From contig NZ_JAPEHT010000001.1 in the NCBI RefSeq assembly GCF_028823615.1, positions 1-64,000 on the forward strand: a stretch of DNA of 64,000 bases. Direction: 5' to 3'. Numbering within the stretch: position 1 is the stretch's first letter; each line of letters opens with the position of its first letter. Source of the DNA: Planococcus sp. A6 (GTDB lineage Bacteria > Bacillota > Bacilli > Bacillales_A > Planococcaceae). A program made the translations under genes and the position numbers. This document shows positions 2,045-34,920 of this stretch, in pieces. A model generated the notes under the pieces. The model did no database searches and was not told where the DNA came from. It saw nothing but the letters and a program-made list of their open reading frames with translations.

Positions 2045-2728
2045 ATGAACATACTCGTAGTCGAAGACGACCGGACGATCGCTTCCGGCCTGACATATTC
2101 GCTCGAACAAGAAGGTTTCACCACGGTATTGTGCCATAGCGCAAAAGACGCCACCGCAGCGATTGAAGGGCAGCTCTCTACAATCGATCTATGCCTCTTC
2201 GATTTGTCTTTGCCCGATGGCAGCGGTTATGACCTATGCGCGCTCGTCAAAAAGAAAAGCGACATCCCGGTCATTTTCCTGACAGCGTTCGACGATGAAG
2301 TGAATGTCGTCATGGGGCTCGATATGGGTGCGGACGATTACATCACCAAGCCGTTCCGCGTACGTGAACTCTTGTCGCGCATCAATTCGGTGCTGCGCCG
2401 CTACCAGCGCAATGCGCAGCCGAAAACGGTCGTCGAACTCGGCGACGTGCACATCAACACCTCGGACGGCAAAGTACATAAAGCGGGCAATGAAGTTCTC
2501 CTCACTGCGCTGGAATATCGCTTGCTGCTCATTTTCGCGAACCATCTCGGCCAAGTGTTGACGCGTGCGCAATTGCTCGACCGCATCTGGGACGTCGGCG
2601 GCGATTTCGTCAACGACAATACACTGACGGTCTACATTAAACGGCTGCGCGAAAAACTGGAAGACGATCCTCAACAACCAATGCTCATCAAAACAGTTCG
2701 CGGCATGGGCTATAAGGCGGGTGAGTAA
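2045..2728 (+). CDS. OmpR/PhoB-family response regulator
   Basis: A 227-residue two-domain regulator. The receiver domain (about 1-115) has the acidic pocket at residues 8-9, the phosphoacceptor Asp53 in FDLSLPDG and the conserved lysine in ITKPF. The C-terminal half (about 125-225) is an OmpR-type winged helix ending VRGMGYK. It is followed 2 bp later by a histidine kinase whose layout matches BceS-like intramembrane sensors, and an ABC transporter lies 800 bp downstream. By analogy with BceRS systems it should activate that transporter. The phased repeats at 4203-4241, just before the transporter's -10 element, look like its binding site; this link is inference. Confidence 0.93.
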   Translation: MNILVVEDDRTIASGLTYSLEQEGFTTVLCHSAKDATAAIEGQLSTIDLCLFDLSLPDGSGYDLCALVKKKSDIPVIFLTAFDDEVNVVMGLDMGADDYITKPFRVRELLSRINSVLRRYQRNAQPKTVVELGDVHINTSDGKVHKAGNEVLLTALEYRLLLIFANHLGQVLTRAQLLDRIWDVGGDFVNDNTLTVYIKRLREKLEDDPQQPMLIKTVRGMGYKAGE

Positions 2729-2730
2729 GG

Positions 2731-3720
2731 ATGCTGCGCAATGTTGAAATCCGCTGGCTGCTGGTCGCACTCATCACAATCAGCGCACTTGGCACGATCT
2801 TCTCAGCCGTTTTTGTTTCCTATACAGCCGCTTGGTTCGTGCTCGGCGTCTCGCTACTACTGAGTACCACGGCGATCATCTTCACTTGGTGGCGCTATCG
2901 GGAAATCGAGCGCTTGTCCGGTTTCCTGCAGCAAATCAGCAGCGGCGATTTCCAGCTCGATGTGCGCGACAACCGCGAAGGCGAGCTAAGCCTCCTCAAA
3001 ACACAAATCTACAAAGTGACGAAAATGCTGTCAGAACACGGCGCGCTTCTCACTGAAGACAAAGGCAAGCTGACGAATGCCATTTCGGACATTTCCCATC
3101 AATTAAAAACGCCGCTCACCTCGATGATGGTCATGGCGGATCTCTTACGCGACAGCGAGTTGGACGACGCAAAACGCACCGAATTCATCCGCAATCTCCA
3201 CGTCCAGCTCGAGCGCATGGACTGGCTCGTGTCGTCGCTATTGAAACTATCGAAAATTGATGCCGGCACGATTCATTTCAAAAGAGACCGCATCCCGGTA
3301 CCCAAGCTCATCGAAAAAGCGGTCGAACCGCTGCTCATCCCGATGGACATCAAAATGCAGGAGCTCGAGATCGAAGGAGATCGGGAAGCTGCGTTTACCG
3401 GCGACCTCAACTGGACGACAGAAGCACTCATCAATATTTTGAAAAACTGCGTCGAACATACCGGGGAAGGCGGCAAGCTGACGATTCGTTATAGTGAAAA
3501 CGCACTGTACACCGGTATCCGCATCGAAGACAACGGCAGTGGCATTTCCAGAAAAGATTTGCCGTATATTTTCAAGGAAAACGCCGGCGATGACTCGGTC
3601 GGCATCGGTCTCGCGATGGCCTATAGCATCATCACCAGCCAAAGCGGCGACATCGAAGTTGCAAGCACACCAAACGAAGGCACCCGCTTCCATATCAAAT
3701 TCTACAAGCAGGTGATCTAG
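2731..3720 (+). CDS. BceS-like intramembrane-sensing histidine kinase
   Basis: A 329-residue sensor kinase. Two closely spaced transmembrane helices (about 9-30 and 34-54) leave only a few residues outside, so there is no extracellular sensor domain. This is the hallmark of intramembrane-sensing kinases that read the state of a partner ABC transporter. The H-box has His123 in SHQLKTP, the N-box is ILKNCVEHT, and the ATP-lid glycines are DNGSG and GIGLAM. GTAAGG serves as ribosome binding site inside the end of the regulator gene, so the two are translated together. It probably detects an envelope-active peptide through the 4522-7787 transporter; the ligand is unknown. Confidence 0.92.
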   Translation: MLRNVEIRWLLVALITISALGTIFSAVFVSYTAAWFVLGVSLLLSTTAIIFTWWRYREIERLSGFLQQISSGDFQLDVRDNREGELSLLKTQIYKVTKMLSEHGALLTEDKGKLTNAISDISHQLKTPLTSMMVMADLLRDSELDDAKRTEFIRNLHVQLERMDWLVSSLLKLSKIDAGTIHFKRDRIPVPKLIEKAVEPLLIPMDIKMQELEIEGDREAAFTGDLNWTTEALINILKNCVEHTGEGGKLTIRYSENALYTGIRIEDNGSGISRKDLPYIFKENAGDDSVGIGLAMAYSIITSQSGDIEVASTPNEGTRFHIKFYKQVI

Positions 3721-17377: not shown

Positions 17378-18973
17378 ATGGATTCTATTAAATTGAAATT
17401 ATTTGGCAGTATTAATGATCCTATTCATGGATCGATAAAAATGAGCACTGAAGAAATGAATGTAATTGGACATCCATTATTTAGAAGGTTACATCACGTT
17501 CGTCAAAATTCTTTTTTATACAAAGTTTTTCCATCTGCTAAACATACTAGATTTGAGCACTCTATAGGAGTGATGCATGTAGCAAGTAAAATTCTATCTG
17601 CTTTATTGTTAAATGGAGAGAGTGCTTCAAAAGCGGGAGATTTAGCAGAGCTTGAAAGTCTTGAGGAAAAATTAGGAGAGGTTATGGGTTTAGGATTTAC
17701 TTTAACTAATATAATGAAGGAAGAGGAAATAATTCAAATGTATAGAGAAGTACGTCTAGCTGCCTTACTCCATGATATTGGGCATGGTCCACTGTCACAT
17801 TTATTTGATGCATTTGCTCCATCTACAGAAGATTTTTTAGAAATATTAAAATCCGATATTAATTTAAAAACAGGCTATCCGATAATTTTAGAGGCTTTTG
17901 AGAAGATGCTTATTGATTATAAGTATGAAGAAACAAAAGAGGCAGAAAATAGCGTGACAATAGAACATGAGCATGTTTCTTCATATTTCACGTACAGGAT
18001 ATTAGATACGCTCGAAATAGGGGAAGAACAAGAGAAAAAAGATTTAATTAACAATGTACTGACTATATTGAAACCCAAATTGGCATTGGGAAGAAAAATA
18101 ATTGAAATAGATGGTATGGAAGTAGACGTTCTTCCTTTGCTAAATGACATCGTTGCTGGCGCACCAATTGACTGCGACAGGATGGATTATCTAAAGCGAG
18201 ACAGCTATTTTGCGGGTGTTCCATATGGCAATTATAGTGAAGATAGAATTTTGAAATCTTTTTTACCTTTTATTTCATCTACTGGAGAGCATGTGGTAGC
18301 ACGGTTAGGATTAAAACATAGCGGATTACATTCTATTGAGAACTTTCTACAAGCCAGGTATGAAATGTTTGTTCAGGTTTATGGGCACAAAACTAATGAA
18401 GCATGTAATTTTATGTTAAACAGTTTAGTAGAAGAGGAAAAGAAGGATTTTAAAATTTGGGCTGGTATAGAGCTAGATCATAATGAATTTGAAGATCTCT
18501 ATGTTAATTTAACTGATGAAACTTTTCTAGAGAAACTCTCAAACAATTTAGGGCCGAAGGGTAAGCAAACAGTAAGCTGTTTGGTTGACAGAAAGCTGTG
18601 GAAGAGAGTTTATGAAACCGAAGAGTTTGTAGAAACTCACGAACAAAATCCACAATTAGAAAGTATTATGAATGAAGCTATTAATAAATTTAGTGAAGCA
18701 GATGATACCTTAAAGTTATTCAAAGGGGATAGGTTCCCACTAAAAGATTTTGAAAATGCAGCAAGAATTCTAGAAAAAAATTCATATTCTTATTATGCTG
18801 TTTCGCAAACTCCATTAAATAAAGCTTCGCAAATTATTGAATCTTTAAATAAAGGATTAAGAGTGTGGAGAATTTATAGCTTGAAACAAAAGACAGAGGC
18901 GGTCAGTAAACTTGCGAAGGAAGAAATTCACCCTCAAATAAAAAGCTTGCAAAATCTAGGGATCGTAAAATAG
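17378..18973 (+). CDS. HD-domain phosphohydrolase, SAMHD1/dNTPase-like
   Basis: A 531-residue protein with the classical dNTP-triphosphohydrolase HD pattern: RFEHSIGV (His61), then LLHDIGHGPLSH (His132-Asp133), and a later CDRMDYLKRD segment carrying the final aspartate. The N-terminus DPIHG is also typical of this group. Members hydrolyse dNTPs or other nucleotides, and several act in antiviral defence. The gene is AT-rich, has AAAAAGGAG before its ATG, and is divergent from the CYTH triphosphatase gene. The pairing of two phosphate-cleaving enzymes suggests a nucleotide-linked function; this is inference. Confidence 0.85.
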   Translation: MDSIKLKLFGSINDPIHGSIKMSTEEMNVIGHPLFRRLHHVRQNSFLYKVFPSAKHTRFEHSIGVMHVASKILSALLLNGESASKAGDLAELESLEEKLGEVMGLGFTLTNIMKEEEIIQMYREVRLAALLHDIGHGPLSHLFDAFAPSTEDFLEILKSDINLKTGYPIILEAFEKMLIDYKYEETKEAENSVTIEHEHVSSYFTYRILDTLEIGEEQEKKDLINNVLTILKPKLALGRKIIEIDGMEVDVLPLLNDIVAGAPIDCDRMDYLKRDSYFAGVPYGNYSEDRILKSFLPFISSTGEHVVARLGLKHSGLHSIENFLQARYEMFVQVYGHKTNEACNFMLNSLVEEEKKDFKIWAGIELDHNEFEDLYVNLTDETFLEKLSNNLGPKGKQTVSCLVDRKLWKRVYETEEFVETHEQNPQLESIMNEAINKFSEADDTLKLFKGDRFPLKDFENAARILEKNSYSYYAVSQTPLNKASQIIESLNKGLRVWRIYSLKQKTEAVSKLAKEEIHPQIKSLQNLGIVK

Positions 18974-19137: not shown

Positions 19138-20334
19138 TCAACTAGAAGCTTTATCTAATAGTTCGTTATATATGCTTCTTCGAGCAGAATTACTTTGATT
19201 ATTAAATTTCACCGTACAGACCCACGAATTGAGTTCAGCTTTTACTTGTTCGGGTACACTGTTTAAAGCGGTGTAAGGGCTATACACAAAGAATCCAATC
19301 AGATACAAAATATAATCAATCCTATTAATTTTATCAAATAAATTTTGCTCGTCTAAAAATTCTAAAGACAGTTCTAGGGAATTTAAAGTAAGAGTCAAAA
19401 CTTCTCGAAATTTGACAATATCTAATTTAATTAATACATCTTCTTTAGTATCCGAAGGAATGGGAGCATAGTTAGTACTATGCTTACCATTTTTCATAAT
19501 CACTTCATAAGCTGGATTTAAGGCGGCAATTGGATAAGAAACATTAGTGGTAAAGGGACTAAAGAGTTCATCAATACCATAAGATTTAAACATTTCTTTA
19601 AACGGGATAGTGTATTCAGTATAAATATCGAAATTTTGCAATTTTAATTTGGAAAAAGCCATTTGAATTGTTGTAACTCTACTACCGGCATTATTCAAAA
19701 TTTCGAACCATTCTACCTGTTCTTCTTCAGTTAAATCCTCTGCAATATTTATAGTGTAGTTATAGTTGTGAATTTTACTTCGAACATTCACTAGCAAAGG
19801 ATAAAGTTTGGAAATGAGATTTCGTTCTGCTAAATATTCCTCGAGTAATCTTTCATCCTCATTTAATAAAATTCCGACAGGGATTTCAGAATTTGAAGGC
19901 GAACCTTCTATAATTCTAAATTTTGCTCTTGAAACATCTAATACAACATTCACAAAATCAGGGTGATTAATAAAGCATTTAAAATTAGTTGTTAACCTTT
20001 GTTGTCCATCTATAGCAGATTGATGAGCATTTAAAATTTGACTATCGGCAATTAATTCTCTATCAATGAAGGAAATTTGAGAGACGGAATTTTCAGCATA
20101 GATTTTATTTATTTCATTTATTGAAATAGGAGAAACGGGGGCTTTTCCGAATAGTTGGTAATTCAAAAGGTCTACGGACTTCTTTAACGTCCAACTCACA
20201 TCCCTTTGATAAAGAGGAAGGGTAATTTTGTTTTCTTTAATTTTTCTGCACATTTCATGAACTTCCATACTATGACTTTTTTTCGTGGGGTTAAAAGACA
20301 CGGCTTGTCTGAGCTTAGTACTTATACGAACCAT
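19138..20334 (-). CDS. DUF262 (GmrS-like) domain protein
   Basis: A 398-residue protein whose N-terminal half is a DUF262 domain: LPLYQRDVSW near residues 38-47 and the signature IDGQQRLTT near 118-126. The latter is the ParB/Srx-like nucleotide-binding motif of GmrSD and related defence proteins. In GmrSD the DUF262 part is joined to a DUF1524 HNH nuclease; no such HNH motif is visible in the C-terminus here. The gene is AT-rich and begins at an ATG behind AAGGAGGAG. A perfect 11-bp inverted repeat lies just upstream. Role in restriction of foreign DNA is likely by family but not shown. Confidence 0.75.
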   Translation of the reverse strand: MVRISTKLRQAVSFNPTKKSHSMEVHEMCRKIKENKITLPLYQRDVSWTLKKSVDLLNYQLFGKAPVSPISINEINKIYAENSVSQISFIDRELIADSQILNAHQSAIDGQQRLTTNFKCFINHPDFVNVVLDVSRAKFRIIEGSPSNSEIPVGILLNEDERLLEEYLAERNLISKLYPLLVNVRSKIHNYNYTINIAEDLTEEEQVEWFEILNNAGSRVTTIQMAFSKLKLQNFDIYTEYTIPFKEMFKSYGIDELFSPFTTNVSYPIAALNPAYEVIMKNGKHSTNYAPIPSDTKEDVLIKLDIVKFREVLTLTLNSLELSLEFLDEQNLFDKINRIDYILYLIGFFVYSPYTALNSVPEQVKAELNSWVCTVKFNNQSNSARRSIYNELLDKASS

Positions 20335-21351: not shown

Positions 21352-22188
21352 ATGGACAGTTATAAAGAATACTTGGTCTTATTATCCAAAAGTTATGAAG
21401 ACGCAATAGAATGGTTGCTTCAAAAATACGGTTCTGCACAAGATGATTATTTCAGGGAAGCTTCATACCAGAGGTTTATGAACGGAGAAATAAAGAACAT
21501 TACAAAAGGTAAATTCTCGAGAACAACTGAAGGTCTATATTGCCATCATATAGATGAAATCAAGTGGTTAAAGATATCTGATCAAGATTTTGTAAAAGAT
21601 TATAGTATCCCCTTTGAGTCTCAAAGAAAAAACAGGTTGGTACATTGTGACTTAGCCGAGCATACGATTTTGCACGTATTGATAACAAAGGAAACTTCTT
21701 TTGAATATGGCTATCCGGGATATGAAGTGTTTTTAAAAAGGCTAATGGAAGAATGGTACCTTGATGAAAGAAAACCCAATCCGGACTGGATGAAACGGTG
21801 TTATTTGAAGTCGTTTCTGAAGCCTCAACAAGCATTTGAATTGGTAAAAGAAATGCAGAGAGTATTAGTAGAGAGTTATTTTAACAGTTTAGAGGATTAT
21901 TTTGAGGAAAAGAAGAAAAGGGAAGAACAAATACAACAGTGGCAAGAACAGCGAAAACAAAGACGAATAGACGAGAGTGCACGTTGGATTGAGGTTGCAA
22001 AGCAATTACATCATAAGAGCCTTAGGAATGATATTGTTACTGCCAGCTATTTTATTCGCGTAGAATATAGAGATGTAATGGATTTATCAAAACAAGCCAC
22101 TACCTTTAAAGAGTATGATCGCGAGATGAAAAAATATAGAAAAGAAGAAATATTGGATGAGCTTTTGGTATATATAAAGTCTTTTTGA
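21352..22188 (+). CDS. Putative HNH-like nuclease domain protein
   Basis: A 278-residue protein with CHHIDE near residue 65 and, after an Asn-containing stretch, CDLAEHTILHVLI near 99-111. This HH...N...EH..LH spacing resembles variant HNH-type endonuclease domains. The second half is a long charged helix (about 170-215, with many Glu, Lys, Gln, Arg), likely coiled coil. No exact family recognised; the HNH reading is based on motif spacing only. Its ATG follows AGGGGT. It lies in the accessory region after DUF4085. Confidence 0.5.
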   Translation: MDSYKEYLVLLSKSYEDAIEWLLQKYGSAQDDYFREASYQRFMNGEIKNITKGKFSRTTEGLYCHHIDEIKWLKISDQDFVKDYSIPFESQRKNRLVHCDLAEHTILHVLITKETSFEYGYPGYEVFLKRLMEEWYLDERKPNPDWMKRCYLKSFLKPQQAFELVKEMQRVLVESYFNSLEDYFEEKKKREEQIQQWQEQRKQRRIDESARWIEVAKQLHHKSLRNDIVTASYFIRVEYRDVMDLSKQATTFKEYDREMKKYRKEEILDELLVYIKSF

Positions 22189-22300: not shown

Positions 22301-22849
22301 ATGAGTTCAATTTATGGAAGGAATTTACTTGAAACCGTCATTGAAAAATCTTCAAAGAAATCGTGGGACAGCGCTGTACTAGAATGGGAAATCGATGATG
22401 TAATTGAAGATAAAGATAATAAATCTACTTGTATATGTGGGAAAGAAAATATTAGATATTTATTTACAATCAGAAATTCATATAATCAAAATACACTTTT
22501 CCCTATTGGAAGTTCTTGTATTAAGAAGTTTAATCGTGAAGATTTAAATGAAATTACTTTAATTAATGAAAAGTTGTTTAAGTTATTTCATGCTATTAAA
22601 ACAAATAAATATATCCAATTAAGTTCTGATTATTTTTCGAGAAAACTATTAGAATACTTTTTTAATCAAGGGGTTTTCAAACCTAGTCAATATAACAATT
22701 TTAATGGGGAAAAGGATTACAATTTTATGCTGAAAATGTTTAATATGAGAAGCCAGCCGACTGCCAGCCAGTCAAAGAAAATAAATGCTATTATCATGAC
22801 TTCTATAAAACCGTATCTGGTACACATGCTTAATGATAAGACTTTGTGA
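22301..22849 (+). CDS. Protein with CxCG zinc-binding motif, unknown function
   Basis: A 182-residue AT-rich gene with GAGGGGG just upstream of its ATG. The central part has Cys44-x-Cys46-Gly, then a strand (IRYLFTIRN), then LFPIGSSCIKKF with Cys73, a short zinc-ribbon or knuckle-like module. The C-terminal part is helical with many aromatic and Lys residues. I do not recognise a named family. It is the last gene before the decayed monooxygenase fragment. Confidence 0.55.
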   Translation: MSSIYGRNLLETVIEKSSKKSWDSAVLEWEIDDVIEDKDNKSTCICGKENIRYLFTIRNSYNQNTLFPIGSSCIKKFNREDLNEITLINEKLFKLFHAIKTNKYIQLSSDYFSRKLLEYFFNQGVFKPSQYNNFNGEKDYNFMLKMFNMRSQPTASQSKKINAIIMTSIKPYLVHMLNDKTL

Positions 22850-30060: not shown

Positions 30061-30516
30061 ATGAACAAAATGGTCGAACAGAAAATGAACGAGATGACTG
30101 ATGTCTTTAATAGCTTGCCGAATTGCCGCGTGGAAACGAGTGAGGACGGGCGGATATTGATCTTGAGCGATAAGCCGGTTCCTTGGAGTGACACGATTGA
30201 GAAGCGGGACGCGCACTCGGAATATAAAATCGGATCCATCACGCCCCATAAAGCGGCTCTCGGCCTGTATATCGATTTCCCGCATAACCTATTGGATATC
30301 GACCGGGTGGAGGACATCGTCGATCCGGACATCACCTTGACATACTACGAACCGGGTACCAAGACCTCGACTGCGAAAAGTTGGTGGCGCTTCCGGTCGG
30401 ACGAGAAATTCGACAGCGTCCATATGGTGTTGAGAAAAACGGAGCTGGAGTTGTATGATTTCACGAGAGACAACTGGGTTGGATTGATGGAAGAGATCAC
30501 CGCTGTTCATAAGTGA
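30061..30516 (+). CDS. Hypothetical protein
   Basis: A 151-residue soluble protein with no signal peptide or membrane segment. It contains strand-like segments (GRILILSDKP, LGLYIDFPHN) and a conserved-looking aromatic cluster (KSWWRFRSDEKF). No family recognised. GAAAGGA lies a little far (about 14 nt) from the ATG at 30061, so the start is moderately secure. Codon use is core-like, unlike the AT-rich gene that follows. Confidence 0.5.
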   Translation: MNKMVEQKMNEMTDVFNSLPNCRVETSEDGRILILSDKPVPWSDTIEKRDAHSEYKIGSITPHKAALGLYIDFPHNLLDIDRVEDIVDPDITLTYYEPGTKTSTAKSWWRFRSDEKFDSVHMVLRKTELELYDFTRDNWVGLMEEITAVHK

Positions 30517-30765
30517 TTGGCAACTTGGCTGAATAACTGAAGTTCTCAGAATTGAATCAATTTCTCTAAAAAATTCGATTGCAAGATACATCATAGGTAG
30601 ACCGTTCCTCCATCCTTATTGCCATATATGCGATGCTCTACAAAAAATGTCTCCTGTGGCAAGAGTTAATGATTGATAGTTTACTTTTCAAAGTTCCACT
30701 TATAATTTTTCGGTTTTTCAGAAACTTTTTGTTTTTTTCTATGGCGTCATAAAAAATTATTTAGT

Positions 30766-30782
30766 CTGCTAAAAAGTAGGAG
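30766..30782 (+). promoter_or_regulatory. 17-bp near-palindrome shared with the DUF262 promoter region
   Basis: CTGCTAAAAAGTAGGAG, identical at 16 of 17 positions to the core of the perfect inverted repeat at 20350-20376. It lies 34 bp before the methyltransferase-like gene. A TATAAT hexamer is present upstream at 30701 but no convincing -35. Confidence 0.5.
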
Positions 30783-30815
30783 TTAATATTTAAAATTGGA
30801 AGAGAGAGGATAACT

Positions 30816-32345
30816 ATGCAAGGCGAAAAGCAAAACCCAACTGCAATTTCCCTTTATTGTGGAGCAGGTGGAATGGATTATGGATTTAAACAAGCTGGGT
30901 ATGAAATTTTGTTAGGTATAGAAATAAATAAAGCTTACTCTGACACTTATGAAAAATTCTCAAATACAAAGTTTTTGAATAAGGATTTAATCGACATAGA
31001 TTATAGGGATATTCCTTATGCGGATGTTGTTATAGGGAAATTCCCTGTACCACCATTTACAACAAGACTAAATGAAGTTCAAGATTTCTCAGGTATTAAT
31101 TCTGTATTAAAATTATTAAAGATAAAAAAACCACGTGCGTTTGTTTTAGAAAGCTTTAAAGGACTAGTGAATTTTAAAAAGGGTTCTTTTTTTCAAGAAT
31201 TACTAAAAGTGTTTTCAGAAAGCAACTATCAAATTACTCACGAAGTTATAAATACTAAAGACTTTGGAATTGCACAAAATAAAGAAAAGTTGATCATTGT
31301 AGGAATCAGGAATGACATAGGAAAAGAATACACTTTTCCAGGTCGAAAAATGGAAAATGTTCTTGTCAAAGATGTTGTATGGGATTACAGATTCGATGAT
31401 AAAGATTATAAATCGTCATTGCTGAATCCGCCTTCGCAAGGACCAAAAAACAGATATAAAAAAGTTATATTGGAATCCATTTCTCCTCCGCTTTTAGGGA
31501 CTTCAAGATATGTTATTGGAAATGAAAAGGTTGGTTTTTCACCTTTGACATTAGAAGAAGCAGCTGCAATCCAATCTTTTCCTAAGGATTTTGAATTTGT
31601 TGGTTCTAGACATTCTAAAATGAATCAAATAGTCGCTTCATTTCCACCTAAATTATCTTTCGAACTTGCAAAAAGTCTGCTCACTACACTAGATATCGAA
31701 GAAAAAATAAATGTAATTGGTAAAAATGGTGAGAACCCAACTTCTAATTTAACTGGAAAAGTGAAAAAAGAAATGGGAAATCAGTCAAAACAAGAAGATA
31801 TGGATAATAATCTAAGTGTAGACCCCGAAATTAAAAATATCTCAATGATTTTACCAGGTAAAGAGCAAGCGCATGATTACCATAATACGGTATTCGAATA
31901 TTTGAAAATTATTTTTGAAAAAGAATTGAGAAGAGGTAGAAAAGAGACACCAATTAATTCTGGAAGAAAAAGGATAGATATAACTTTCGACAATGCAGGG
32001 AAGGAAGGCTTCTTTTTTGATTTGAAAAACCAATATGATATTAAATGTGCCAAAATCTTGATTGAATGTAAGAATTACAATGAAAGTCTTCAGAATCCAG
32101 AATTTGATCAACTAACAGGAAGATTTAATAACTGGTATGGAGAATTTGGACTATTAATTTGTAGATCTGTAACTTGCAGAAAAAAAAGCATTTCTCAATG
32201 CAAAGATATTTTGAATAGTGGCAAAGGGGTGGTCATAGTTTTAACTGATGAAGACTTGAAAAACTTAATGGCTTTAAGAAACAATTTGGATTTCCAAGGA
32301 ATTAGCGATTATATGAGGGATTTATTAAACGAAGTTATTGTGTAA
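30816..32345 (+). CDS. C5-methyltransferase-like domain lacking catalytic Cys, fused to PD-(D/E)XK nuclease
   Basis: A 509-residue AT-rich gene. Residues 10-290 follow a DNA cytosine-C5 methyltransferase: motif I YCGAGG (14-19), acidic motif II (Glu36), motif VIII around Gln154 and a motif IX/X-like LTLEEAAAIQSFP (244-256). The catalytic Pro-Cys of motif IV is changed to FPVPPFT (76-82), with Val78 where Cys should be. ENV of motif VI reads ESF, and QIGNAVPP reads QIVASFPP. After a linker, residues 350-480 show a PD-(D/E)XK nuclease pattern: Asp388, ECK (417-419) and Gln432. It is probably a non-methylating DNA-binding or base-flipping reader coupled to a nuclease (inference). No partner methylase is nearby. 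Confidence 0.8.
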   Translation: MQGEKQNPTAISLYCGAGGMDYGFKQAGYEILLGIEINKAYSDTYEKFSNTKFLNKDLIDIDYRDIPYADVVIGKFPVPPFTTRLNEVQDFSGINSVLKLLKIKKPRAFVLESFKGLVNFKKGSFFQELLKVFSESNYQITHEVINTKDFGIAQNKEKLIIVGIRNDIGKEYTFPGRKMENVLVKDVVWDYRFDDKDYKSSLLNPPSQGPKNRYKKVILESISPPLLGTSRYVIGNEKVGFSPLTLEEAAAIQSFPKDFEFVGSRHSKMNQIVASFPPKLSFELAKSLLTTLDIEEKINVIGKNGENPTSNLTGKVKKEMGNQSKQEDMDNNLSVDPEIKNISMILPGKEQAHDYHNTVFEYLKIIFEKELRRGRKETPINSGRKRIDITFDNAGKEGFFFDLKNQYDIKCAKILIECKNYNESLQNPEFDQLTGRFNNWYGEFGLLICRSVTCRKKSISQCKDILNSGKGVVIVLTDEDLKNLMALRNNLDFQGISDYMRDLLNEVIV

Positions 32346-32880
32346 TTTAATCATTTTACTATTCTATAAAACTTTAAAAAGCACTAATATTACTTGCAAA
32401 GTAAATTGAAATAAATTTTGAATTCACTTTAGTATATTTATGAGAGTTACTTAAAGATGGTGCTTTACCCAATGAATTTGAGAATTATAGTACGTAGCTT
32501 TTATATTTTCAATAAGTATAATGAGCATGGGGATGGTTAAAAGTAAGGGACTCGCTCAAAACACATTTTACTAACTGGATTGCTACACTTGCTGAATCAC
32601 TTCGGCAGGTGTTTTTTTATTGTCCCACACTCCGCAAGCGCCTCAAGGAGAGAGTGGATATTGTGTCTTTTATCTTCACATGTTCCATTAGCCATACAGC
32701 ACAAAAAATGATGTATAGGGAATGGAGTATATTTGCCCCTAATTGCTTCAAGAGTTTTGGCATTAATTGGCACCTTTCGCTTTATTCAAAAGAATGAGCA
32801 AGCGTATGCGCATATAGTAGCACTACCTGTGGTATAGAATAGGAAGAAAATAATCTACTGAAAGCATCGGAGGATGAAAA
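32346..32880 (+). other. 535-bp intergenic stretch
   Basis: AT-rich, no credible gene. The only clear element is the terminator at 32585-32618. Sequence after the terminator returns to core-like composition, suggesting that the right border of the transferred segment lies between about 32350 and 32620. No integrase, attachment repeat or tRNA was recognised. Confidence 0.5.
32585..32618 (+). terminator. Intrinsic terminator
   Basis: ACACTTGCTGAA (32585-32596), TCAC loop, TTCGGCAGGTGT (32601-32612) with two G-U pairs, then a run of seven or more T. It lies 240 bp after the methyltransferase-like gene, so it may end that transcript or be left from a lost gene. Confidence 0.75.
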
Positions 32881-34920
32881 ATGAATGAGTTTGTTGAGTT
32901 TAGAAATCGTGTTTATGGTAACAACGGCAATTATAGTTACCCTTTTCAATTTTTGGATGAGTACATAAATAACAGCACGGCGCTAAACTCCGATGAATCC
33001 AGAGTGGTCAAGCAAATTCGAGCAATCAAGCAACTGGAGCTGGACAAGCAATTAGGTGAAAAGGAAATAGATGAATTATTGTCGTTTTTGGGAGAGCACC
33101 CAACGACAGACCGATTTATCGTAGATGCGGTTTTACGCTTATTTAATGACGAAAGCAAGCAATTACTAGAAGCAAAGATCAAAGAGCTATTGGTAAACCA
33201 GCAATACGATAGTCAAAAGCTCTATCATGTTTTGGATCTCTGTATTGAATGTGGTATCGACATGTTAAGCAATGAGGATATCTCATTTATGCTTGAGCGC
33301 TACAAACAGGATTGGGAGATCGTTTCTCTGTTGCTGGACTATCTGGACCGTTTTGAGCGGCAGGGATTTAAAGACCTTATATACGAATTATTGGAGCTCG
33401 ATTACCCGGATGGCATAAAAATCCAAGCCCTCAATTTATTAATGAAATTGGGTCCAACGGAAATGGCTGACCAATCCTTCGTGCAGAAGCATATCAGAAA
33501 CGAGAAAAATGAAGTGTTTTTTGATAGTTATGTAGACTTTCTCAAGACAGATTTTAATTTCGACAAACAAGGCGTTTCCGTTTTACAGTCGATGTTTTAT
33601 GGGGATTTTGAAGATAGCGGGAAAGGGAATAATGGAGGCTTAGCCGTATTATTAAAATCTTTGGGTGAAGAGGTATCGAAAGACGATCGCATCGCTCATG
33701 TGTTTACGATCACGATCACGCAAGAATCCAATAAGCCTTTTATCAGCTTCCATGGCGATAAACATGTCTTTATCAGATTGCCCATCTATTTAGATCAGTC
33801 TCGATCAGACAAGTTCATTAAACGAGAGTTATTCATCAAAAGGCAGATTGCCCATTTTTTGAAACGGTCTGACATAAAGCCCGATGTCTTCCATATCCGG
33901 TTTTTAGACAACGCATCTAAAGCGGTTGCCCATCTGAGCAAGGATTTAAACAGCAAACTGGTCTTTACCCTAACGCCAGACCCGCACCGAAACATGTTTG
34001 AGGGATCGGGGCAGTTAAAGGAATTTAATTTTAATGAGCTGATTGAAAAACTGAACAAGATCAAGATAGGTGATGAATTAATCCACACGAGCGATGGCAT
34101 CGTTGGCATCGGGAATGGAGACGTGAAAACAGAACTTGCGGTCTATTTCCCTCAATTTAAGGATGAGGATGTAAACAGAAAAATAAAAATGATCGGTGAA
34201 GGTATACAGACAGGCCAAGCAATTAATGTAAAAGACATCGCTCCCCATTCAACTGCGCTTACAGAATGGAGCGAAACAAACAAAGCTTTCTTTGAAAAAC
34301 CCGTCATCTTAAACGTCGGTAGATTGGCTGTGTTAAAAGGGCAGATGGAGCTGTTAAAAGCGTGGGCAAACTCCAAGCTTTCTGACACCCATAATCTTCT
34401 CATTATCGGCGGAGATTTGGAGCGGCCGAGCGCAGAAGAAAAAATGGTGATTGATTTCTTTGAGGATTTCTTGCAACAGCATCCCGAGTTCAAAGACCGG
34501 TTCATCCATAAAGGGGCCATGTCGAATGTGGATATCAGATCGCTCGAACGGAATATCATTAAAAAAGACTTTGACTACCCCCATATCTACCTATGCTCGA
34601 GTGCAAAAGAGGAGTTTGGTATCGCTATTTTAGAAGCGATGTCAATCGGATTCCTAACTTTGGGGCCGATCAAAGGCGGAGTGAAAAGTTACATGAAGAG
34701 TGGCGAAAATGGATTTTTGATCGACACCAGCAATTGGGAGACGATCGCCAGAGAAACGGAAAAACATCTGTATGATCCCCAAATCGATAAAGAGGCAGTA
34801 AAGAAAATTCAAGTTGCAGGACAAAAAACGATAGATGAAAACTTTTCGATTCAAAACATTTCAAAGGAGTTTGTGTCATTTTATTCGTCTTTAGAAGGAG
34901 AAAATGAAAATGAAATATAA
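32881..34920 (+). CDS. Glycosyltransferase family 4-type protein with helical N-terminal extension
   Basis: A 679-residue protein. Residues 1 to about 215 are an all-helical, repeat-like region rich in Leu and Glu. From about 240 a GT-B fold begins with a sucrose-phosphate-synthase-like GKGNNGGLAVLLKSLG loop. The donor half has LNVGRLAVLKGQ, LLIIGGD and the EEFGIAILEAM motif with the retaining-enzyme glutamates, then GPIKGG. It should transfer a sugar from a nucleotide donor with retention. Neither acceptor nor pathway is evident. The gene overlaps the next glycosyltransferase by 11 nt, so the two are coupled. GGAGG precedes the ATG. Confidence 0.82.
   Translation: MNEFVEFRNRVYGNNGNYSYPFQFLDEYINNSTALNSDESRVVKQIRAIKQLELDKQLGEKEIDELLSFLGEHPTTDRFIVDAVLRLFNDESKQLLEAKIKELLVNQQYDSQKLYHVLDLCIECGIDMLSNEDISFMLERYKQDWEIVSLLLDYLDRFERQGFKDLIYELLELDYPDGIKIQALNLLMKLGPTEMADQSFVQKHIRNEKNEVFFDSYVDFLKTDFNFDKQGVSVLQSMFYGDFEDSGKGNNGGLAVLLKSLGEEVSKDDRIAHVFTITITQESNKPFISFHGDKHVFIRLPIYLDQSRSDKFIKRELFIKRQIAHFLKRSDIKPDVFHIRFLDNASKAVAHLSKDLNSKLVFTLTPDPHRNMFEGSGQLKEFNFNELIEKLNKIKIGDELIHTSDGIVGIGNGDVKTELAVYFPQFKDEDVNRKIKMIGEGIQTGQAINVKDIAPHSTALTEWSETNKAFFEKPVILNVGRLAVLKGQMELLKAWANSKLSDTHNLLIIGGDLERPSAEEKMVIDFFEDFLQQHPEFKDRFIHKGAMSNVDIRSLERNIIKKDFDYPHIYLCSSAKEEFGIAILEAMSIGFLTLGPIKGGVKSYMKSGENGFLIDTSNWETIARETEKHLYDPQIDKEAVKKIQVAGQKTIDENFSIQNISKEFVSFYSSLEGENENEI

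Follow-up and report, generated by a model that had tools for sequence, protein, structure and literature searches.

What becomes of a DNA methyltransferase that has lost the residues it needs for methylation and that shares its polypeptide with a nuclease? The question is raised by a gene of Planococcus sp. A6, which lies in the window analysed here (the first 64,000 nucleotides of contig NZ_JAPEHT010000001.1) within a 3.52-Mb draft genome of 265 contigs that is 99.97% complete. The gene (30816..32345, + strand) starts with ATG and encodes 509 amino acids in an uninterrupted reading frame; a likely ribosome binding site, GAGAGAGG, was assigned by eye six bases upstream of the ATG (30802..30809, +). 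Its product, hereafter the fusion protein, consists of a head with a C5-methyltransferase fold (residues 1-297; 30816..31706, +), a linker modelled with low confidence (residues 298-340; 31707..31835, +) and a PD-(D/E)XK nuclease domain (residues 341-509; 31836..32342, +). In sequence and models we observe these two folds, losses in the first, conservation in the second and insertion of the gene into its present site. Reading of the frame and its codons found in place every feature that the initial annotation of this DNA had listed.

The identity of the head is clear from sequence and from structure prediction. Over the whole protein, the Pfam C-5 cytosine methylase family (PF00145) matches with an E-value of 6.7e-41 (141 bits against a cut-off of 22), most strongly over residues 10-194, and no further Pfam family matches at E<=1. 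The nearest solved sequence is that of M.HaeIII (E 2.6e-29), and in PADLOC the best 25 of the 56 families matching the fusion protein are methyltransferases. The head model superposes on M.HhaI with Z 29.3 (rmsd 4.0, 253 aligned residues) and on M.HaeIII with Z 28.7. In the whole-protein AlphaFold2 model (mean pLDDT 72.6), the core blocks of the head, residues 11-70 and 91-180, reach mean pLDDT values of 91-97, and the catalytic loop 81-87 and residues 208-240 fall below 50; the nuclease half is poor in this model, with only two sequences behind it, and a separate domain model is quoted for that half instead.

The fold is kept, and the residues for catalysis are lost. In order to align C5 methyltransferases, we used a profile built from an alignment of the fusion protein and 23 others; this gave 154 rows, near-duplicates included, of which 142 span motifs IV and VI. 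The motif IV cysteine is present in all 142, and the fusion protein has Val78 at this position (codon GTA, 31047..31049, +), as had been noted together with the retained order of the C5 motifs. Three base changes separate GTA from either cysteine codon, so that the replacement is not a single-base sequencing error. Motif VI reads Glu-Ser-Phe at residues 112-114 (31149..31157, +) instead of Glu-Asn-Val; its asparagine occurs in 141 of the 142 rows, the sole exception being a second fusion protein, L038, described below. Motif VIII reads Gln-Asn-Lys-Glu-Lys at residues 154-158 (31275..31289, +) and not Gln-x-Arg-x-Arg, with Lys156 and Lys158 at positions where the first arginine is found in 142 of 143 rows and the second in all 143. 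In motif X, Val273-Ala274 (31632..31637, +) stand where Gly-Asn is expected. Glu112, Ser113, Phe114, Lys156, Lys158, Val273 and Ala274 were read from their codons, which bears out the replacement of ENV by ESF and of QIGNAVPP by QIVASFPP given in the initial annotation.

The extent of these losses becomes apparent against 137 background rows, which are aligned stretches recruited by similarity to the fusion protein and its kin rather than a random C5 sample, exclude L038 and rows more than 90% alike, and include up to 22 rows also used in making the profile: at the 19 columns with a conservation of 95% or more among them, the fusion protein departs ten times (F14Y, G75K, C78V, S82T, N113S, V114F, R156K, R158K, R242S and G273V), the worst background row three times and the next once. 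The near-invariant residues that the head keeps are G16, G18, D70, P77, E112, Y138, Q154, E248 and Q253. The SAM-site residues Gly16, Gly18, Glu36 and Asp57 of motifs I-III are kept, with Phe14 changed to tyrosine. The target-recognition region between motifs VIII and IX (31311..31544, +) is short, with 78 residues against a 5th percentile of 79 in 126 rows; its shortness and low model confidence speak against precise sequence reading. C5 methylation is not expected without the motif IV cysteine, and the alignment supports a head that has the fold of a C5 methyltransferase without the residues for catalysis and would not be expected to methylate DNA itself. Exchange of this cysteine for glycine in M.HhaI or M.EcoRII leads to stronger DNA binding or to toxicity of the protein, so that tight binding to DNA is compatible with a catalytically dead C5 enzyme.

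The second half of the protein shows the opposite picture of conservation. A domain model of residues 333-509 (AlphaFold2) reached a pLDDT of 91.6 and a pTM of 0.88, and the order of its predicted core elements (H17-34 E39-48 E53-61 H66-73 E81-87 H95-102 E112-117) is that of the alpha-beta-beta-beta-alpha-beta core of PD-(D/E)XK nucleases, a core that had been named beforehand as the structural test. The best solved fold match is FokI (Z 13.1, rmsd 3.0, 152 aligned residues), followed by Nt.BspD6I (11.5), AspBHI (9.6), Shedu SduA (8.8) and MspJI (8.6); ordered by Foldseek E-value, AspBHI (6.2e-4) and MspJI (1.3e-3) come first. The predicted catalytic residues are Asp388 (GAT, 31977..31979, +) and the E-x-K motif Glu417-Cys418-Lys419 (GAA, TGT and AAG, 32064..32072, +), with Gln432 (CAA, 32109..32111, +) on the next helix. 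Asp388, Glu417, Lys419 and Gln432, from which the nuclease had been recognised in the initial annotation, are invariant together with 14 other columns in all 71 aligned domains, the fusion protein included, and the cysteine is conserved in at least 90%. The branch of the fusion protein in the nuclease tree is long (1.45), and the retention of all 18 invariant columns despite this length argues that the nuclease is under selection.

By sequence, the nuclease domain alone matches the PADLOC family PDC-M36A (PDLC04597; E 2.8e-13, profile positions 285-433 of 457), which PADLOC lists with no description, the letters PDC presumably denoting a phage-defence candidate. Residues 333-509 gave no Pfam match. 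Mrr_cat (PF04471) weakly matches 38 of the 71 domains at E<=0.1 (best 7.8e-6), the domain of the fusion protein not being one of them. A search of PDB sequences with the nuclease-alignment profile returned nothing below E 0.07, and the matches above it look like chance. An NCBIfam match to lacG (0.0055) lies far under the family cut-off and was likewise taken as chance.

How widely is this nuclease distributed, and with which heads? Scans with a six-sequence nuclease alignment as query yielded 157 relatives in genome contigs and at least 16 in viral contigs; a further relative lies on a Paenibacillus plasmid, and in 261 genomes of the family strong relatives of the nuclease region occur in four proteins of about 480-500 amino acids with other N-termini. 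Heads were compared by single-linkage blastp clustering in 98 rows, comprising the window, the plasmid locus, the best 80 of the 157 genome loci and 16 viral loci, a few of which repeat genome loci. PDC-M36A-like heads account for 87 of these rows (several of them fragments), a second head type for four and C5 methyltransferases for two, namely the fusion protein and L038 from a Clostridiales metagenome-assembled genome; the rest are four short unclustered N-termini and one row without an N-terminus. Among five full-length relatives compared with PADLOC, four match PDC-M36A over the head too, and the remaining one belongs to the second head type. Roughly the first 280 positions of the PDC-M36A profile describe another head, whose place is taken here by the C5 methyltransferase. 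This nuclease module is widespread and comes with three or more kinds of exchangeable head; given that other proteins combine it with different front ends, the role of the dead methylase is probably that of a sensor. The earlier interpretation stands for the catalysis-less C5 head, the conserved PD-(D/E)XK nuclease, the expected lack of methylation of its own and the horizontal acquisition; it is to be corrected in that the protein represents one head type on a widespread nuclease module and is no isolated oddity. The nuclease residues are conserved across the family (71 of 71), and a dead motif IV is seen in this protein only.

The second head type (L002, L031, L041, L042 and L049) is about 310 amino acids long and occurs in Bacillota on the same nuclease; in L002 and L031 no Pfam family matches this head above the cut-off, and PADLOC does not match the complete L041 protein. 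The nuclease domains of L002 and L049 lie at zero distance in the tree.

Proteins with both halves of the fusion are rare. In a full-length search of the 261 family genomes, both halves were matched in the window's own genome only, and no second copy of the gene was found in them. Profile searches of 398, 329 and 283 genomes, the first two sets sharing genomes (limits E 1e-30, 1e-45 and 1e-55), found the fusion protein and L038 and no third protein with both halves. A single-sequence scan of genome contigs gave 32 pattern matches and no relative. Among plasmids, one nuclease relative was found with the fusion protein as query and two with L038; phages gave none at E 0.01. Two further candidates were examined: L134 looked like a shortened third member, but its visible part has the PCQ and ENV motifs of an ordinary methyltransferase and runs off a contig end, so that it may or may not continue into a fusion; L153 is an ordinary methyltransferase. 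Clustering of the neighbours within 3.5 kb at 97 nuclease loci revealed no common partner gene, so that a two-gene restriction-modification reading is not supported for the nuclease family; the largest clusters, judged by eye, are recombinase-like (8 loci), split-off pieces of the family head (6) and helicase-like (5), and a C5 methyltransferase gene neighbours the nuclease gene at 3 of the 97 loci. In an Azambacteria metagenome-assembled genome (L045), a C5 methyltransferase gene (2053-3060) and part of another (3-653) lie a few kilobases from a PDC-M36A-like nuclease gene.

L038, from Clostridiales bacterium GWB2_37_7, has the same two-part plan and is 31% identical to the fusion protein over 557 columns. 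Its head, matched by Pfam at full length (240 bits), keeps FPCQSFS and the second arginine of motif VIII; in ENV its asparagine is replaced by glycine, Gln-x-Arg reads His-x-Lys and motif X lacks Gly-Asn, and with 4 of the 19 near-invariant residues lost it is an outlier against the background. Its identity to a plasmid gene that is annotated as an ordinary methyltransferase reaches 47%, and the genome of L038 holds two more full-length C5 methyltransferase matches. In the methyltransferase tree the two fused heads are separated by well supported branches, in agreement with a larger quick tree. A single origin of both heads was rejected by the AU test, as a tree that unites them is worse by 37.4 log units (p-AU 0.00117; the branch of the fusion protein is long). 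In the nuclease tree both proteins lie in a weakly supported clade of seven (83/54) that includes the second head type. From the trees we read two separate recruitments of C5 methyltransferases by one nuclease family, each apparently followed by loss of conserved positions that would have gone further in the fusion protein; with two cases this is a pattern and not a rule, and one fusion followed by head replacement may also account for it. Of the refuting outcome named at the outset, homologues with an intact PC motif and this copy as a single decayed outlier, one half is seen: L038, the only other protein of this architecture found, has the intact motif, but its head comes from another lineage and has itself lost 4 of 19 residues, and for this reason the fusion protein is not simply one decayed member of a healthy family.

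The location of the gene adds a further line of evidence. Comparison by blastn with three sister species (L267, L268 and L272) delimits an insert of 2054 bp (30524..32577) that is absent from their site: the matches stop at 30523 and restart at 32578, and the 48 bp between them form the empty site. The insert has a GC content of 30.7%, against 43.2% in the adjoining 1.2 kb. It is bordered by a gene for a 151-aa hypothetical protein (30061..30516, +) and, on the far side, by a glycosyltransferase gene identified by Pfam and blastn (32881..34920, +) that lies outside the system. AT-richness had suggested horizontal transfer in the initial annotation, and the GC difference and the empty sites in three sister species support horizontal acquisition of the fusion gene. 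The gene itself is isolated, as had been stated, yet it occupies an insertion spot that other genomes share.

This became evident from the Na/Ca exchanger gene next door. At 1e-90, 16 of the 46 genomes of the genus, counting the present one, contain this gene; the stretches beside it were compared in 14 of the 15 others (G100 was left out). The 151-aa gene follows the exchanger in eight of the 14 (L265-L272). It is directly followed by the glycosyltransferase gene in L267, L268 and L272, and L265 shows the same gene order but includes some 0.7 kb of sequence without a match. In three sister species, other cargo comes with a full or partial second copy of the 151-aa gene: L266 carries a complete JetABCD Wadjet operon (PADLOC JetA2-JetD2) between the gene and its fragment (L266:1641-9630), with no glycosyltransferase found in the 13 kb examined; in L270, three genes that neither Pfam nor PADLOC matches at 0.01 lie between the gene and its fragment (L270:9254-11427); and in L271, a Mutator-type transposase and unnamed genes are flanked by one partial and one full copy (L271:1219-3824). 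No convincing remnant of the 151-aa gene was found in the fusion-gene insert. L269 has a symporter at the site and no glycosyltransferase was found there; the six stretches L273-L278, of which one measures only 3.2 kb, contained none of the other window genes that were looked for. The site is an insertion hotspot that has repeatedly taken up cargo, at least once a known defence system; the symporter of L269 and the transposase with unnamed genes of L271 indicate that its cargo is not always defence.

With regard to methylation in the host, no other C5 methyltransferase over the Pfam cut-off was found in the genome (one partial match of 19.8 bits lies below it), nor was any PF01555 methyltransferase over the cut-off. 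N6_Mtase (type I HsdM) gave three strong matches and a weaker fourth on contigs C212, C196 and C22. Elsewhere in the window, an AT-rich stretch at about 16-23 kb encodes a 398-aa protein with a GmrSD_N restriction-endonuclease match (8.8e-10; 19138-20334, -) and a 531-aa HD-domain protein (17378-18973, +) with weak, below cut-off likeness to dGTPase and Cas3-HD. Two neighbours in this stretch, at 21352-22188 and 22301-22849, are not matched by Pfam at 0.001.

Which function would reconcile a dead methyltransferase with an intact nuclease? On balance we lean, by a small degree, towards a single-gene anti-phage or anti-plasmid endonuclease with a non-methylating head that is derived from a C5 methyltransferase and serves in DNA recognition or licensing. 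A C5 methyltransferase would have been fused to a mobile FokI-like PD-(D/E)XK module that elsewhere has other front ends, and would then have lost catalysis, with its fold and much of its SAM pocket kept. DNA is the most likely ligand of the head, which may hold a flipped or a C5-modified cytosine and would bring the nuclease to foreign DNA or activate it there. We infer DNA binding, cleavage, a role in defence and any dependence on modification from the observations above. If self is not marked, a nuclease has to be selective or kept under control, and as no methylation is expected of the head and no other host C5 methyltransferase was found, self must be spared otherwise. The simplest option would be recognition, in a type-IV-like manner, of a modification that only invaders carry; foreign C5-modified DNA as the target would explain the absence of self C5 methylation.

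We hold this modified-cytosine reading of the head only tentatively and consider it rather improbable. FokI and Nt.BspD6I are not modification-dependent, and that they rank above the modification-dependent enzymes by Z counts against it; by analogy, the use of heads for other cues in SduA-like nucleases may count against any DNA or modified-cytosine ligand. We speculate, with the same reserve, that C5 methyltransferases were retired at least twice independently into non-methylating readers by fusion to the same mobile FokI-like defence nuclease, giving restriction enzymes that would recognise C5-modified or otherwise marked foreign cytosine in what was once the catalytic pocket, with a reader unrelated to the SRA, McrB-N and winged-helix readers; the dead motif IV is seen in one protein only, and L038 keeps its cysteine.

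Other explanations appear unlikely to us, albeit to different degrees. The protein could be the decayed remnant of a natural type-IIC-like restriction-modification fusion, its methyltransferase half dead and the gene becoming a pseudogene. A fused ancestor of this kind would look like L038, with its FPCQSFS motif and full-length Pfam match, the branches of the fusion protein are long in both trees, and an engineered fusion of the Eco29kI cytosine methyltransferase and endonuclease is functional (PMC3039593). This origin is nevertheless hard to reconcile with a frame that is intact over 509 codons and with all 18 family-invariant nuclease residues kept, and the host should suffer from a restriction half that survives its methylase. 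Moreover, since the heads are not sister lineages by the AU test, L038 is not the healthy ancestral form, and it is itself an outlier with its four losses.

Slightly less probable than such a remnant is a head that senses a small molecule or a protein rather than DNA, for example one that keeps the nuclease silent when bound to SAM and releases it upon SAM depletion by a phage. Retention of Gly16, Gly18, Glu36, Asp57 and Pro77 alongside loss of Cys78, Asn113, Arg156 and Arg158 would fit a SAM sensor; changes are however seen at Phe14 and at the Gly-Asn of motif X, positions that lie in or next to the SAM site of C5 enzymes, and we know of no SAM-sensing nuclease of this kind. Shedu-type nucleases, whose SduA is among the fold matches, have variable N-terminal sensory modules (PMC12839542), but C5 methyltransferases are DNA-binding proteins from the outset. 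The least probable of these alternatives is an ordinary sequence-specific restriction enzyme with a methyltransferase-derived reader, host sites being rare or protected by another methylase. The three strong HsdM matches make adenine methylation in this genome likely; yet HsdM is part of type I systems with their own specificity, neither a PF01555 nor another C5 enzyme exceeds the cut-off, and the target-recognition region is short. The DNA-recognising or licensing endonuclease remains the reading that we prefer. If true, it would mean that a self-marking enzyme can be converted into a sensor of foreign DNA, that a one-gene system can be freed from the need for self-methylation, and that there is a new class of cytosine reader, potentially useful for mapping modified DNA. 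Regardless of this, PDC-M36A proteins present a nuclease module with exchangeable heads, and one recognisable head makes the logic of the family testable.

Several known systems share parts of this plan. FokI and Nt.BspD6I, the closest solved nuclease folds, have a separable cleavage domain, a different recognition domain and separate partner methylases; their recognition domain is unlike the head described here. MspJI and AspBHI, also similar in nuclease fold, combine a reader with a following PD-(D/E)XK nuclease and have no methylase of their own. The reader of MspJI is an SRA-like domain (PMC3874153), whereas a C5-methyltransferase fold occupies the reader position in the fusion protein. 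Shedu SduA resembles it as a PD-(D/E)XK nuclease with variable N-terminal modules (PMC12839542), and differs in its type of head, PF00145 being the sole Pfam match of the fusion protein.

Dead methylase domains, too, have a precedent in defence. In the DndFGH counter-invader system, which has an active REase domain, DndH carries a catalytically inactive DAM-type methylase domain, and this DAM domain is proposed to mask sites from invader methylases (PMC10853773). The methylase domain of DndH is of DAM type, has an eroded AdoMet loop too and belongs to a multi-gene system, in contrast to the C5-type head with kept motif I glycines that is encoded here by one gene; by analogy, site masking as proposed there could apply to the fusion-protein head as well.

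The methyltransferase of Eco29kI is of the C5 type. In engineered RM.Eco29kI, a cytosine methyltransferase and an endonuclease of the GIY-YIG type are both active on one chain (PMC3039593); from such Type IIC arrangements the fusion protein would differ in lacking the residues for methylation. In the titles and abstract openings of the open-licence literature, no natural nuclease with a dead C5-methylase head was found to be described, and nothing on PDC-M36 was found in open-licence literature. The likeness to PDC-M36A lies in the nuclease domain and the difference in the C5-methyltransferase head. By its head, the fusion protein belongs neither to MspJI/AspBHI nor to PDC-M36A: a candidate defence nuclease (PDC-M36A) and dead methylase domains in defence were already known, and what is new is the C5-methyltransferase type of head.
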